Shown: positions 4,218-61,130 of the stretch, piece after piece | How the letters are laid out: every line of letters begins with the position of its first letter | How positions within the stretch are numbered: position 1 is the stretch's first letter | Assembly: GCA_015062605.1 (NCBI GenBank) | Contig: SUUI01000008.1 | Location: 1-64,000, forward strand | DNA from: Eggerthellaceae bacterium | GTDB lineage: Bacteria > Actinomycetota > Coriobacteriia > Coriobacteriales > Eggerthellaceae | Direction: 5' to 3' | Length of the DNA: 64,000 bases | Position numbers and translations under genes: made by a program | The notes under the pieces: model-generated | Told to the model about the DNA's origin: nothing | Database searches by the model: none | What the model saw: only the letters and a program-made list of their open reading frames with translations

Positions 4218-5816
4218 TTACAGCTCAGCGAAAAGCTGGCTTCCCTTGGTGTCGAGCCAATGCAGCAAATACGCTGCGATGCCTAAGAACAGCACGATCC
4301 ATACAGCCATGTACGTTGTGGCATCGAGTGCTGATCCAAAAAGGAAATAGATGAGGATGAACGCTATGGCGATCCCCCAACCCCCGAGCATCAAGACAAT
4401 GACAGCTCCGCTTCGCTTGAGGGGCATGAGTTCGTTCGTCCAGGAGACGTTAGCCATTTTCACGCCGAGGAACGAGCCTGCCATTGACGTGAACACCACA
4501 TACGCGAATGGCACGATGCACATGAGCGCCTTGGGTGTAGCGGGCAGGTCGAGTGCGAACGCAAGGCACGCAACCGCAATAGCCAGTGGAGCCGCCGTCA
4601 GGACAAGATGTACGACTGCTTTGGCGCGCAACACGTTCTTTGACGCTATAGGAAGCGACTGCAGGATCCATAGGCTCCTACCTTCAAGCGATACCGATGG
4701 TGCCGCAATGGTATTGGTTCCAGCAAACATGCACAGCGCTCCGCATAAAACTACGCAAACGAATGCGAGATCGTTTCCCCAGATTTCAACTATCAGCTCG
4801 TTGATAGACTGGGCATTCAAAAGTGTCACCACACCGAAAACCAGTATGAACAAGGAACCCATACTTGAATTCAGAATATAGTTGGCGTTCGAGCGGTATT
4901 TCGCGAATTCCTTGCTCACAAGCGCGCTGAACGGCGATTTGAAGCTTGCGGTTTTCTCAACATAGCGGACACGTTTGGTTTTGGCTGAGGCTGTTGCGAG
5001 CTTTAGATAGCTATGCGACAGCGCCATCCAGGTCAATGCGACGAGTACGATGGCGATTACCAAGAACGCAGCGGTTGCTGTTACGTTACCCTCGCCGATG
5101 CTGCCGAACAGGTAGATGACATAAGCGGCGTCCTTTGCGCTGGCGCTGTACGCCGCGGCGTTCGCAATCAGCTCCATCATCGCTTCGCCAGCCTGGAAGT
5201 AGACGAAGTAGTACAGCGCGAGGAACGCCACGATGATGAGAACGGAAAGTAAGCTCTTATTTTCAAGCCTCAAGGCGATTTTCGCGACAATCCAGCTGAA
5301 CAGGCATCCAACGCACAATACAACGGCTGCAGAGATGATGAGCAACGTGATACCACAGAGCACTTCCACGATGCCCGCAGAAGCGGTTCCCCAATACACA
5401 ACGAGCGCGGGTACCAGCGCAATAGCCGTATACAGGGTTCCGAGTAGAAACGTGCTCATGAGGCGCGCGGCAACGATGTCCTTTATCGGGATGGGCAACG
5501 ACAGCAACAGATCATTGTCTTTTGCGAGAAAAAGGGCCGCATAACCAGTAGCCACCGCGCCGAACACGCCGATCAGAATGGCGGTTCCTGCCATGATTAC
5601 GAAGTACAGCCAACCTGCATTCGCATTGACCAAAGGCCAGCATAGCGTAACCGCCAACGAAACGAACATGCTTCCGAACACGCCGAATATGAGGATGACG
5701 AAGAACGCGAACCATGCGATGATGGACCCTTTCGAGCGCATCTGGTTCTTTTTCGCATCGTAGAAGTAGCCCTTGAAGATCTCTTGGAATTGCTTCTTCA
5801 GCAGGATCTTGAACAT
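4218..5816 (-). CDS. Large ABC exporter permease (putative)
   Basis: 532-aa polytopic membrane protein with roughly 12 hydrophobic segments, arranged as two ABC-2-like halves separated near residues 270-310 by a basic hydrophilic stretch (SAKTKRVRYVEK). It begins exactly one base after the stop of the adjacent ATPase gene (5817), so the two are co-transcribed and very probably form one exporter. The N-terminus (MFKILLKKQFQEIFKGYFYD) is typical of large ABC exporter permeases of Firmicutes and Actinobacteria with unknown substrate. Confidence 0.8.
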   Translation of the reverse strand: MFKILLKKQFQEIFKGYFYDAKKNQMRSKGSIIAWFAFFVILIFGVFGSMFVSLAVTLCWPLVNANAGWLYFVIMAGTAILIGVFGAVATGYAALFLAKDNDLLLSLPIPIKDIVAARLMSTFLLGTLYTAIALVPALVVYWGTASAGIVEVLCGITLLIISAAVVLCVGCLFSWIVAKIALRLENKSLLSVLIIVAFLALYYFVYFQAGEAMMELIANAAAYSASAKDAAYVIYLFGSIGEGNVTATAAFLVIAIVLVALTWMALSHSYLKLATASAKTKRVRYVEKTASFKSPFSALVSKEFAKYRSNANYILNSSMGSLFILVFGVVTLLNAQSINELIVEIWGNDLAFVCVVLCGALCMFAGTNTIAAPSVSLEGRSLWILQSLPIASKNVLRAKAVVHLVLTAAPLAIAVACLAFALDLPATPKALMCIVPFAYVVFTSMAGSFLGVKMANVSWTNELMPLKRSGAVIVLMLGGWGIAIAFILIYFLFGSALDATTYMAVWIVLFLGIAAYLLHWLDTKGSQLFAEL

Positions 5817-22552: not shown

Positions 22553-22594
22553 ATGAGAAAAACGAACCCCCTGCCAGGTTGCATGGCAGGGGGT
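22553..22594 (-). terminator. Intrinsic terminator of the MFS / prenylcysteine-oxidase-like operon
   Basis: On the minus strand an 11-bp perfect stem ACCCCCTGCCA/TGGCAGGGGGT with a 7-nt loop (arms 22584-22594 and 22566-22576) is followed by TCGTTTTTCT. It lies 32 bp after the stop of the flavoprotein gene and closes the operon. Confidence 0.85.
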
Positions 22595-22625
22595 AAGCCT
22601 GGTCGCAATCATGCGGGTTTTCGCA

Positions 22626-23996
22626 TCACGCCTGTGCCGCCAGGAATTCGTCGATTTGGATGTTTGCCGCGTTGATAGCGCTAACCGCTTCGACCTCGAC
22701 CGACCCCGCAGCCGTTTCGAACGCGTTTGCGAAATACAGGCCCGGCTGAATCTTGAAGGGCACATGCTCGACATCGGTTGTCAGAATCGGATATGCGCCG
22801 CGCCATACGTATTCGGTCTCATCGTGAACGACCGTGAAGATACGTGCGAGCTCTTCATCGGTAACGTGATGATCGGCGCTGAAGATCTTGTAAATACGAC
22901 TGTTGTATTGCGGCGAGAAGCCCGTCACGCCTACCGACTTGAACGGGGCTCCCGCGCTATCGGCGGTGAAGATGGTCGACGGCAGTTTCTTCGAGGGTTT
23001 CGCATGGAAGTACGACGGGTTGAGCTCGCCTGCGATGAAGCGCGTGTGGACGACCTGATACGGATTCTTCGCAATGGGGATCACCGCACCCTCTTTCACA
23101 ATGTCAAAGCCCGACATAGCGGGAGGAACCGCCAAAACGACCGCATCGTATTCTTTCTCCTGACCGTCATCCGATGTCACGCGATATACGAAACCGTGCG
23201 GGCGATCATCGTCGGGCGAAGCCTCGACTCCGGTGACGCGCGTGTTGTAGCGCGTATCGGTGCCGATTGCCTCCAGCGTTTTCTGGAACACGGTCCAGTT
23301 TCCCCCTTCGATGGCGAAGAGGTAGCCGCCCGCCAAGCCGGCTCCTGCCAAACCTACGAGTCCGGCGAAAGCGTTCATCTCGAGGCCCTGGTTGTACATA
23401 TTGTGCGTAATAGGCTCGACGATGTCCTTTGCCATGCGGTCGTTCACGCCTAGCTTCTTGAGGTAGTTTCCAAGGGAGATTTCGGCCGCTTCACGTTCTT
23501 GCACGCCATCGAGCAGCTCATTCACCGTTTGGAATGTCTTGCCGGATTCCTGGATGGCGTAGATGCCGTCCCATTTCTCGGCCATTTCCTTCGCGTGATT
23601 CGTGACTTTGAGTGCGCTTGACGGTCCGACATGCTTCACGATGCCGATCGCCATAGATGCCAGGCTCGAATGCGTGAAGACTGGGAAGCCTTTGTCCGTC
23701 CACCAACCGAAGGTCTCGTCGTCGCCGTCCATGCTGACGCCGGGTGTTCCTTCCTTCGAGCCGACGAGTTTCATGATCTCGAACGTATGCTTGCCGGACG
23801 AATGGAGCACTGCGCCGCCTGCCTCCAGGGTCGCGCCTGCGAAATCGACATCCCATACGCGTCCGCCCGCATGCTCGTTCTTCTCGTATACGGTGATTTG
23901 CGCGGTGTCGCCAAGCCGTTTTTGAATCTGGTATGCGGCGAACGTGCCGGCAGCACCTGCACCGATGACGGCGACTTCATACGTTTGCTTGCTCAT
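22626..23996 (-). CDS. FAD-dependent prenylcysteine oxidase-like protein
   Basis: 456-aa flavoprotein. The dinucleotide motif is VAVIGAGAAGTFAAYQIQ at residues ~8-25, with the acidic ribose ligand in YEKNEHAGGR. Several blocks run co-linear with eukaryotic prenylcysteine oxidase (compared from memory): LEAGGAVLHSSGKH, YNQGLEMNAFAGLVGLAGAG then FAIEGGNWTVFQ, HTRFIAGELNPSYF, SRIYKIFSA, and a C-terminal FANAFETAAGSVEVEAVSAI. That enzyme cleaves the thioether of prenylcysteine to cysteine, an aldehyde and H2O2. No signal peptide is visible, whereas the animal enzyme is lysosomal. SD AAAGGACC is present. It follows the MFS gene by 90 bp and shares its attenuator. The exact substrate is inferred; a general amine oxidase is the alternative. 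Confidence 0.8.
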   Translation of the reverse strand: MSKQTYEVAVIGAGAAGTFAAYQIQKRLGDTAQITVYEKNEHAGGRVWDVDFAGATLEAGGAVLHSSGKHTFEIMKLVGSKEGTPGVSMDGDDETFGWWTDKGFPVFTHSSLASMAIGIVKHVGPSSALKVTNHAKEMAEKWDGIYAIQESGKTFQTVNELLDGVQEREAAEISLGNYLKKLGVNDRMAKDIVEPITHNMYNQGLEMNAFAGLVGLAGAGLAGGYLFAIEGGNWTVFQKTLEAIGTDTRYNTRVTGVEASPDDDRPHGFVYRVTSDDGQEKEYDAVVLAVPPAMSGFDIVKEGAVIPIAKNPYQVVHTRFIAGELNPSYFHAKPSKKLPSTIFTADSAGAPFKSVGVTGFSPQYNSRIYKIFSADHHVTDEELARIFTVVHDETEYVWRGAYPILTTDVEHVPFKIQPGLYFANAFETAAGSVEVEAVSAINAANIQIDEFLAAQA

Positions 23997-24086
23997 TGAA
24001 GGTCCTTTCTCTTTCGTGTCGTACTCATGTTTTGGAACATGCGATCACATCGCTGTGTTTGCTTCTTTCGTGCGTGAGCAACGTGC

Positions 24087-25490
24087 TCAATCGCTCGTTT
24101 TATCTCCAGTGAGGAACACCGCCACGACAACGAGGCCGATGACGATGAACAGGCTGCAGACGATCCAAACTGCATCGTAACCCGTATTGCTGATGAGGCC
24201 GTCGGGAGTGGTCCCGATTTTCAGAAGGCTCACATACAGGCCGCCTGCCAGTGCGCCGCCAAGGGTTTGCGAGGAATTGAAAAGACCCGTCGCGATGCCT
24301 TTGGTGTCTTGCGTTGCGCGGTCGGGGATGATGACCGGAATCGCAGCGGAAACGGTGCCGAGACCGAGGCCGGCAAGGCTGACGAACAAGGCGACTCGAA
24401 CAAGGCCGGTGCCGGGCAGCAGCCACTGGATGAATGCGATGAGCGCAATGACGAAACCGGCGATGAGCACGCCCTTTGCAGGGAGCTTACGAAGCAGGAA
24501 GGGCAGGATGAAGGCTGCGATGACCGTGCATCCCGTGATTACCGTCTCAGCGATTGAAATGGCATCAGGTTCGAATGCATACCCGTAGCCGTATACGGCG
24601 GGGTCGGCGGCCAAGAACGTTGCGACAGGCGAGAGATAGCCGTAGAACACGGCGCCGAAGCATATTGCGGCAATATAGAGAGGGAAGAGCCTGCGCGAGA
24701 ACATGACGTTCACGTCGATGGCAGGGTTCTTCGTGCGCTTCTCATACCGATACCAGAAGACGCCTACCACGATGGCGCCGACGAGAAGCACTGCGCCGAT
24801 GACGCTATCGAGCCCGCCCTCGACGACTTCGGTGAAGCCGAGGATGGCGACGATCATGAAGATGCCCAGGAGGATGAAGCCCTTGCGGTCGATCCAGGTG
24901 TTCGCGCCGGTGACGTATTCGGGCATCACGAAAATGACGAGCAGGGTGCAAATCACATGGAGCAGGGGGATGAACGCTATCGATGCGGCGACCGTCCCCA
25001 ACGCGTTGTAGACGAAACCGGAGCTCAATGTGCCCAGCAAGGTTCCCAGGGTCATGGTTGCCACGATTGCCGCGACGGAGTTCGTGGCGGTCCGTCCGGT
25101 GGTTTTCGAGTGCACCAGGGCGATATGCAGCGGCATCCACACGGGAATCGCGCCGTTGAATGCGCGGCCGACGAGCACGAGCGCCCATGACCCGAAGAAG
25201 GCGCCTGCCCAGATGAGCACGGTTGCCACCAGCACGGAGGGAATCACGATGCGCAGGATGAACCGGTAGCCTTTGATATCGCCCATGCGTGTGAAGAAGG
25301 GGACGAGGATGGCCGCGAGAGCGGTGGGGATGACGTTGAACAGCTGAAGCCCTGATGCGTCTACGCCGAGCTCGAGGCCAAATTTTGGAATCAAGGGCTC
25401 GTAGTAGCCCTGGGTGAAACCGCTGACGAGCTCGATGATGACGATGGTCAACACCAGCTTGAAGGTATCTTTATCAATCGTGCGTGACAT
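24087..25490 (-). CDS. MFS transporter (DHA2-like, ~14 TM)
   Basis: 467-aa major facilitator superfamily protein with about 14 hydrophobic helices. It has the loop 2-3 motif-A region FFTRMGDIKGYRF, a motif-C-like TM5 (TLGTLLGTLSSGFVYN), and a C-terminal repeat of this pattern (GTVSAAIPVIIPDRATQD). The start at 25490 follows AAAGGAAATTGC; an ATG ten codons upstream lacks an SD. Substrate cannot be read from sequence, but expression is governed by a Met/Cys-codon leader and the downstream gene is prenylcysteine-oxidase-like. A thioether or sulfur amino acid derivative is therefore the best guess. Confidence 0.9.
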   Translation of the reverse strand: MSRTIDKDTFKLVLTIVIIELVSGFTQGYYEPLIPKFGLELGVDASGLQLFNVIPTALAAILVPFFTRMGDIKGYRFILRIVIPSVLVATVLIWAGAFFGSWALVLVGRAFNGAIPVWMPLHIALVHSKTTGRTATNSVAAIVATMTLGTLLGTLSSGFVYNALGTVAASIAFIPLLHVICTLLVIFVMPEYVTGANTWIDRKGFILLGIFMIVAILGFTEVVEGGLDSVIGAVLLVGAIVVGVFWYRYEKRTKNPAIDVNVMFSRRLFPLYIAAICFGAVFYGYLSPVATFLAADPAVYGYGYAFEPDAISIAETVITGCTVIAAFILPFLLRKLPAKGVLIAGFVIALIAFIQWLLPGTGLVRVALFVSLAGLGLGTVSAAIPVIIPDRATQDTKGIATGLFNSSQTLGGALAGGLYVSLLKIGTTPDGLISNTGYDAVWIVCSLFIVIGLVVVAVFLTGDKTSD

Positions 25491-25540
25491 GCAATTTCCT
25501 TTCGTTGACGTTGGAATCATGAGGGGCTCCCAACAAAAAA

Positions 25541-25556
25541 GGAGCCTTAAGGCTCC
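25541..25556 (-). terminator. Attenuator terminator in the MFS leader
   Basis: On the minus strand GGAGCC-TTAA-GGCTCC is followed directly by TTTTTTGTTG (25540-25531), a textbook intrinsic terminator about 40 bp before the MFS start codon. Its upstream arm overlaps the 3' arm of the antiterminator (25553-25565), so the two structures exclude each other. Confidence 0.9.
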
Positions 25557-25645
25557 CGAACATCGACCGAATCAAGAGATGATCCCGAAAAAGCTACCGC
25601 AGCATAAAGGGAAACGTGCACGCAGCCCTTTCCGATGTTCGGGAG
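25553..25645 (-). promoter_or_regulatory. Antiterminator of a Met/Cys-responsive attenuator
   Basis: CGATGTTCGGGAG (plus 25633-25645) and CTCCCGAACATCG (25553-25565) are perfectly complementary over 13 bp. The 5' arm in the transcript lies within the leader peptide gene, starting 12 nt past the Cys codons. A ribosome stalled on the Met/Cys run would leave this arm free to pair and break the terminator. A ribosome reaching the stop codon would cover or pass it and let the terminator form. The mechanism is inferred from the layout, which matches classical amino-acid attenuators. Confidence 0.85.
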
Positions 25646-25707
25646 TTGGGCATTCGACAACAGCACATCATCATCATGATGCGTTGATCTGCTGAGTGAA
25701 TGGCCAT
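25594..25707 (-). CDS. Leader peptide with Met4-Cys3 run (attenuation control)
   Basis: A 37-codon frame starts at ATG 25707, eight nt after GGAGG, and ends at TAG (25596-25594). It reads MAIHSADQRI, then MMMMCCCR, then continues to MLR. Codons 11-14 are Met and 15-17 Cys, with another Cys at 30 and further Met at 19 and 35. Such clustering of two related rare amino acids just before an antiterminator arm is the mark of a control peptide rather than a functional protein. It is too short for ordinary gene callers. Confidence 0.88.
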   Translation of the reverse strand: MAIHSADQRIMMMMCCCRMPNSRTSERAACTFPFMLR

Positions 25708-25749
25708 AGTGTGTCCTCCGAAAACGAGCTTATGGAATCGACTGGGAAA

Positions 25750-25778
25750 ATAATAAAAGGGCGAATTCTGCATGTCAA
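25750..25778 (-). promoter_or_regulatory. Consensus sigma70 promoter of the leader-MFS-flavoprotein operon
   Basis: On the minus strand TTGACA (25778-25773), a 17-bp spacer, and TATTAT (25755-25750). The -35 is a perfect match and the -10 differs at one base. The leader SD is about 32 bp downstream of the -10. A promoter this strong fits control by attenuation. Confidence 0.9.
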
Positions 25779-25779
25779 T

Positions 25780-25809
25780 AAAAAACCTATCAAAGTGATA
25801 GGTTTTTTT
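25780..25809. terminator. Bidirectional intrinsic terminator
   Basis: AAAAAACCTATCA, loop AAG, TGATAGGTTTTTTT. On the minus strand it ends transcripts from the GntR/ABC-remnant unit just before the leader promoter. The plus-strand T-run is equally good. Confidence 0.85.
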
Positions 25810-25834
25810 AAGCAGGTGGCAATTTCCAGGTGTT

Positions 25835-60699: not shown

Positions 60700-61130
60700 A
60701 GGATGCCCTTTCGCTGCGTGTTCGGTGCACACGGAGATGGTTTTCGCTTCCTGCTTTCTTCGCGTAGTATAAGCCTCTTTGTGCCAACTACCGTTTAAGG
60801 GTTTCCATATTTGTGCGGAATGTGGCGAACCGTCATAACGTGCGCATATCTGCTAAACTGTATGGTGCTTCTTTTGGCTCTGTAGTTGCGAGGGCGCAGA
60901 TGCGTCCTTTAGTCCATGGCAGATGCGGTCGAAAGGATCCACGTAAGTGCGGGGCAACTCGCATGAGCATGGCGTATTCTAGGCGTAAGTCGTACCGCTC
61001 GTTGATAAGCAGCATTCGGCTGCACGAGCGAGAGGGTGGTCGGTATCAAGCCAATACCCCAGTACGCGAGTGTGGGGGCAAAGACTAGGTCAGACAAAAG
61101 AAGCCAGCGTAGAACGAACGGGAGGATACT
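60700..61130 (+). other. Structured non-coding leader upstream of the binding lipoprotein gene
   Basis: No convincing gene. Successive hairpins are visible on the plus strand: GCTCGT...GCAGC-ATTCG-GCTGC-ACGAGC (60997-61029), GGTAT-CAAGCCA-ATACC (61042-61058), and CCCCA...TGGGG (61057-61061/61073-61077). The last two share bases 61057-61058, so they cannot form together. No known riboswitch class is recognised. Confidence 0.4.

Follow-up and report, generated by a model that had tools for sequence, protein, structure and literature searches.

A 64,000-nucleotide stretch of DNA from an Eggerthellaceae bacterium (assembly GCA_015062605.1, contig SUUI01000008.1, positions 1 to 64,000; hereafter the window) carries, entirely on its minus strand, an operon of about 3.2 kb made up of a promoter, a leader open reading frame (ORF), an attenuator, a gene for a transporter of the major facilitator superfamily (MFS), a gene for a flavoprotein and a terminator. 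The flavoprotein, an oxidase dependent on flavin adenine dinucleotide (FAD), belongs to the prenylcysteine oxidase family, and the leader encodes a run of methionine and cysteine codons ahead of the attenuator. The features of the operon, in window coordinates, are the following.

25750..25778, minus strand: sigma-70-type promoter, TTGACA-17 nt-TATTAT (consensus scan, 11/12 matches)
25594..25707, minus strand: 37-codon leader peptide ORF, preceded by the Shine-Dalgarno sequence GGAGG and encoding MAIHSADQRIMMMMCCCRMPNSRTSERAACTFPFMLR and a stop (sequence; shuffles)
25657..25677, minus strand: regulatory codons, four Met (Met4, 25677-25666) and three Cys (Cys3, 25665-25657), then Arg (sequence)
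25633..25645, minus strand: antiterminator 5′ arm, CTCCCGAACATCG (perfect 13-bp complement of 25565-25553)
25553..25565, minus strand: antiterminator 3′ arm, CGATGTTCGGGAG, overlapping the terminator 5′ arm (sequence complementarity; shuffles)
25540..25557, minus strand: attenuator, an intrinsic terminator hairpin of 7 bp and then a T run (scan and fold)
24087..25490, minus strand: MFS transporter, DHA2-like, about 14 transmembrane segments, alternative ATG start at 25520 (PF07690, E 5e-20; structure profile; hydropathy)
22626..23996, minus strand: 456-aa FAD oxidase, prenylcysteine oxidase family (PF07156, E 2e-56; AlphaFold model; invariant Tyr)
22566..22594, minus strand: operon-ending intrinsic terminator with an 11-bp stem (scan)

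The anatomy given in the preliminary description of this DNA, namely a promoter, a Met4-Cys3 leader, an antiterminator/terminator pair, the MFS gene, the flavoprotein gene 90 bp further on and an end terminator, is present in full. Chance occurrence of the attenuator was assessed with dinucleotide-preserving shuffles of the leader region. An ORF with at least three consecutive Cys codons arose in 7 of 5000 shuffles and a Met/Cys run of seven or more in none of 5000, while the longest perfect pairing that overlaps the terminator arm is 13 bp against a shuffle maximum of 9 (n=500), and the region folds with a z-score of -3.7 relative to shuffles. Given this rarity, the 13-bp pairing and the folding score, the attenuator anatomy is real as sequence, and the earlier account of it is sound. 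The leader ORF is translatable, having both a Shine-Dalgarno sequence and the regulatory codon run. Its Cys codons lie mid-ORF (codons 15-17 of 37), the antiterminator 5′ arm begins 12 nt after the last of them, and the antiterminator and terminator are mutually exclusive. A search of the leader region against Rfam found no known family, the E-value search giving chance matches alone. Directly 5′ of the promoter, at 25774-25812, stands a perfect hairpin flanked by A/T, AAAAAACCTATCA-CTT-TGATAGGTTTTTT, which could terminate transcription both ways, between the operon and genes for a GntR-type regulator and a membrane protein.

The flavoprotein matches PF07156 (Prenylcys_lyase) with E 2e-56 and 191.8 bits against a curated cut-off of 27, and the same family was matched in 24/24 bacterial homologues. 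When an alignment of these 24 homologues was used as a profile to search the PDB, the best relative was 9fxq, a reconstructed ancestral PCYOX1 (E 4e-70); all other matches were at 6e-12 or weaker and nearly all were limited to the N-terminal FAD-binding part. The AlphaFold (AF2) model, with a mean pLDDT (predicted local distance difference test) of 91.4, likewise found 9fxq far ahead in a structure search of the PDB (E 3.5e-35, template modelling (TM) scores 0.88/0.86), followed by the nicotine-type oxidase 6cr0 (E 7.6e-20, TM 0.66/0.69). Identity to PCYOX1 over the structural alignment is 28%. Three active-site residues of PCYOX1 have been mutated, Y221A and V234W being inactive and Y433A weakened (Barone et al., PMC11530802). 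These three residues are chain positions 201, 214 and 413 of 9fxq, a constant offset of 20 giving the expected residue in all three cases. Their counterparts in the window protein are Tyr201, Val214 and Tyr402; both tyrosines are invariant in 24/24 bacterial homologues and the valine is nearly so. Domain match, fold and residue mapping thus establish that the flavoprotein is a member of the prenylcysteine oxidase family that retains the mutation-tested active-site residues, as its earlier designation as prenylcysteine-oxidase-like had proposed.

No signal peptide is apparent in the flavoprotein, and NCBIfam offers no specific name for it or for the MFS protein. The flavoprotein contains no cysteine in its 456 residues, compared with 1.47% in window proteins, and in the Propionibacteriaceae locus L036, described below, flavoprotein and MFS together hold a single one. 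Such Cys-poor proteins would suit synthesis during cysteine starvation; this is a weak hint, because the family is generally Cys-poor and GC-rich genomes may be too.

The solved structures closest to the MFS profile are DHA2-type drug/lipid transporters (the putative drug transporter 7d5p, QacA and EfpA), the match of the 13-member profile being weak (E 5e-15), and hydropathy gives 13 peaks and one weaker segment, in keeping with about 14 membrane helices. A GTDB-wide scan for close homologues found 15 loci, and in most of them a same-family MFS (53-63% identical, full length) adjoins the flavoprotein. In one of the 15 the MFS gene is divergent and its end alone lies on the contig, none of the same family was found beside the flavoprotein in L031 or L038, and L040 is cut by a contig end that falls within the flavoprotein. 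The two genes are divergent neighbours in L066, from one further genome (G376), and in L041/L065 (G375), so that the pairing survives rearrangement, and several distant homologues (28-43% identity) also have an MFS, itself distantly related, alongside. The co-occurrence of MFS and flavoprotein, one part of what had been put forward for checking, is found in most close and several distant loci, and the pair is thus an old functional unit.

Two further arrangements were seen among the more distant relatives. In a distant PF07156 clade (about 28-34% identical; L141, L142, L146, L147 and also L145) the operons contain a different MFS, and in the first four of these loci an alpha/beta hydrolase gene adjoins the flavoprotein as a third operon gene; one guess is that it encodes an esterase that would strip prenyl-cysteine of its methyl ester ahead of the oxidation step. 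The genome of L067 (G367:C131) has one copy at a contig end and, as L067 itself, another homologue that is more divergent (42%) and near which no MFS was found.

By their record titles, all 15 close loci belong to Actinomycetota (Coriobacteriia, Bifidobacteriaceae and Propionibacteriaceae). Close homologues occur in 12/397 genomes of the window's order and in 1/396 genomes spread over the phylum, namely the window's own, and are absent from both of the other genomes of its genus that were examined. This rare and patchy distribution suggests horizontal transfer. The record of one locus names yak rumen as its source, and many others have isolate codes suggestive of insect-gut metagenome bins.

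Poly-Cys leaders recur at two other loci, both from Propionibacteriaceae and both just 5′ of the MFS gene. The leader of L036, MRFSGSVAPAITVHCLGCCCR, ends in HCLGCCCR, with its Cys run at the stop codon, and that of L037, MQSQIVPRGCCCRGGAR, ends in RGCCCRGGAR. ORFs containing CCCR appeared in 2/4000 shuffled upstream regions for L036 and 0/4000 for L037. A terminator-like hairpin directly follows the leader in L037 but not in L036, and the L037 leader has a possible leaderless start, TACACT lying a few nucleotides before its ATG. Since these two loci have Cys3-Arg leaders of their own, the leader element in common is Cys3-Arg, and cysteine, not methionine, the common denominator. In a tree the window locus does not group with L036 and L037, which implies either repeated gain or frequent loss of poly-Cys leaders. 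Elsewhere the region 5′ of the MFS gene is occupied differently. Five related loci (L029, L032, L033, L034 and L035) have there a gene of the Asp/Glu/hydantoin racemase family (PF01177 in L029) that appears co-transcribed with the MFS, one close locus has a helicase-like gene directly 5′, and L027, L028 and L030 have plain intergenic regions without a Cys leader.

Further leaders were sought by codon scans and gave no accepted candidate. A scan of the window's genome for Cys3-Arg codons returned 20 matches, as against 22 for a reversed-pattern control, and no second Cys leader of this form; the other matches with a suitable short ORF that were followed up (window 5499-5509, minus strand, and one on contig 15) fall within an ABC permease gene and a trmD-like gene, in a different reading frame. 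For the two Propionibacteriaceae genomes 30 Cys3-Arg matches were read, one of which is intergenic with a start codon; it was rejected, its neighbour being a threonine synthase gene that ends beside it and runs on the other strand. Near CysK-like genes, too, no Cys leader was found, in the window's genome or in G759.

We propose that the operon serves sulfur salvage, its two genes releasing cysteine from S-prenyl or S-alkyl cysteine under the control of cysteine starvation through ribosome-mediated attenuation. A ribosome covers some 12-14 nt beyond its A-site codon, so that one stalled on the Met4-Cys3 codons, when Cys-tRNA (and here Met-tRNA too) is poorly charged, would leave the antiterminator arm at 25645-25633 just clear. 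This arm would then pair with CGATGTTCGGGAG, and the antiterminator so formed would block the terminator and let the MFS and flavoprotein genes be transcribed. With adequate charging, the moving ribosome would cover and unwind the 5′ arm as the polymerase transcribes the terminator, which would then fold. The likeliest activity of the flavoprotein is oxidation of S-prenyl (or another activated S-alkyl) cysteine at its C-S bond, with hydride passing to FAD, and hydrolysis would yield free cysteine and an aldehyde; a prenyl group is plausible. What the MFS would carry across the membrane, inwards or outwards, is either the substrate or the hydrophobic product. While the anatomy, the family and fold, the conserved active-site residues, the gene pairing and the recurrence of Cys3 leaders are shown, the response to cysteine and methionine, the substrate, the product and the direction of transport are inferred.

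Several observations weigh against this proposal. The leader and antiterminator are absent from most orthologous loci, most close loci having no Cys leader; the preliminary description had named such a lack of conservation as a ground for refutation, although the independent recurrence of Cys3-Arg leaders in L036 and L037 speaks in the opposite sense. The Met4 run is found at the window locus only among the close loci. The leader stop codon (25596-25594) falls in the loop of the antiterminator, some 37 nt beyond the 5′ arm, so that after ribosome release the antiterminator could re-form and allow some readthrough even in fed cells. The window organism is not an obvious cysteine auxotroph, since its genome has two CysK-like genes; it also has an O-acetylhomoserine sulfhydrylase and IscS/IscU, and its sulfhydrylase/CysK and IscS/IscU genes are without a Cys leader. 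PCYOX1 requires O2 and acts on C15/C20 chains only, and many of the host organisms are probably anaerobes. In the open-access literature searched, no bacterial PF07156 enzyme with measured activity was found. Finally, the MFS appears to resemble 14-helix DHA2 exporters; because DHA2-type relatives are mostly exporters or lipid movers, import would be an assumption, and the importer of the earlier account is not supported.

In the window organism, with its CysK-like genes, the operon would be a supplementary source of cysteine. In G758, the genome of L036, the members of the cysteine-synthase superfamily (PF00291) are TrpB- and ThrC-like only and no CysK- or CBS-like gene was found, in a metagenome bin that may be incomplete; cysteine auxotrophy combined with a Cys3-Arg leader operon is possible there. 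The independent Cys leaders and the active-site comparison strengthen the central idea, and we consider the salvage operon about evenly balanced between right and wrong.

A first alternative, which we consider unlikely, is detoxification: the enzyme would degrade a thioether that is toxic or acts on membranes (be it prenyl-cysteine, an S-conjugate or a prenylated peptide), the MFS would export the product or the compound, and the leader would sense the cysteine depletion that electrophiles or oxidants cause. The resemblance of the approximately 14-helix MFS to drug exporters including QacA and EfpA would fit this, as would the age of its pairing with the enzyme. A sensor of cysteine (and methionine) starvation, however, would be an indirect sensor of toxins, and in the cases described from other bacteria (PMC1262725) poly-Cys leaders govern genes of cysteine synthesis. 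A second alternative accepts the attenuator and supposes that the enzyme has departed from thioethers towards another hydrophobic substrate such as an amine, an isoprenoid or an alcohol. Lower-ranked structural matches do share the wider flavin amine oxidase fold, and 28% is a low identity to PCYOX1, but the tyrosine essential in PCYOX1 is kept in every one of the 24 homologues, no amine oxidase comes near 9fxq in the searches by sequence or by fold, and the independent Cys leaders point to cysteine; we judge this rather improbable. A third alternative takes the leader for a short ORF that arose by chance and the hairpins for an ordinary promoter-proximal terminator, with regulation unrelated to cysteine or methionine. 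The absence of the leader from most orthologous loci would agree with it, but the shuffle frequencies of the codon runs, the 13-bp antiterminator and the Cys3-Arg leaders at two more loci make it very improbable.

The salvage operon can be extended into a broader and more tentative picture, which we hold to be doubtful as a whole. In gut Actinobacteria, some of them without a recognisable cysteine synthase, a transferable two-gene pathway would import prenyl-cysteine from the turnover of eukaryotic prenylated proteins and free its cysteine by a PCYOX-type oxidase, switched on at cysteine starvation by repeatedly recruited poly-Cys attenuators. A bacterial counterpart of PCYOX under such control would make prenylated-protein waste a nutrient source and would hint at what PF07156 proteins do physiologically in bacteria. 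The enzyme, the transporter and the leader codons stand together in one 3.2-kb operon, and divergent relatives without the leader serve as natural comparisons. Elsewhere in the window, at 60869-61102 on the plus strand, lies a raiA RNA (RF03072, a structured RNA family; 139 bits, far over the gathering score).

Work on prenylcysteine oxidase has dealt with the enzyme of animals and plants, which disposes of the remnants of prenylated proteins. With eukaryotic PCYOX1/PCYOX1L (9fxq; PMC11530802) the window protein shares PF07156, the fold (TM 0.88), the Y221/V234/Y433 residues and FAD; it differs in being bacterial, in having no apparent signal peptide, in its MFS operon and attenuator control, and in its 28% identity. 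The similarity of the MFS to the DHA2 exporters QacA, EfpA and 7d5p, which likewise have about 14 transmembrane helices, is weak. Searches of the open-access literature on prenylcysteine lyase/oxidase showed no PF07156-type bacterial enzyme among the papers listed, none of the papers searched mentions PF07156, and the combined operon was not found described there, most subscription journals lying outside it.

Mycobacterial poly-Cys leaders, by the title of a 2020 study by Canestrari (cited in PMC13236596), are reportedly cysteine-responsive attenuators. A prediction of 2005 placed such leaders 5′ of the cys operons of Mycobacterium and P. acnes and 5′ of the B. longum cbs gene (PMC1262725). 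The window likewise has a short leader ORF with a Cys-codon run 5′ of a cysteine-related operon. Its run is mid-ORF and preceded by Met4, whereas that of L036 stands right at the stop codon as in the 2005 leaders, and unlike those leaders the window has a clear intrinsic terminator/antiterminator pair. The genes controlled also differ, being a transporter and a PCYOX-like oxidase in the window and cysteine biosynthesis genes in the earlier cases. In Bacillus subtilis, CmoO and CmoJ salvage S-alkyl-cysteine by sulfoxidation and then C-S cleavage of the sulfoxide, through N-acetylated intermediates (PMC10863075). The outcome proposed here is the same, a flavoenzyme cleaving the C-S bond of S-alkyl-cysteine to recover cysteine, while the flavoenzymes are unrelated; a domain search of the two operon proteins found neither a monooxygenase nor an acetyltransferase domain, their domains being PF07156/amine-oxidase-type FAD domains and MFS only. 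Thus each half of the operon has a known counterpart, the enzyme in PCYOX and the control in actinobacterial poly-Cys attenuation, and CmoO/CmoJ is a functional analogue.

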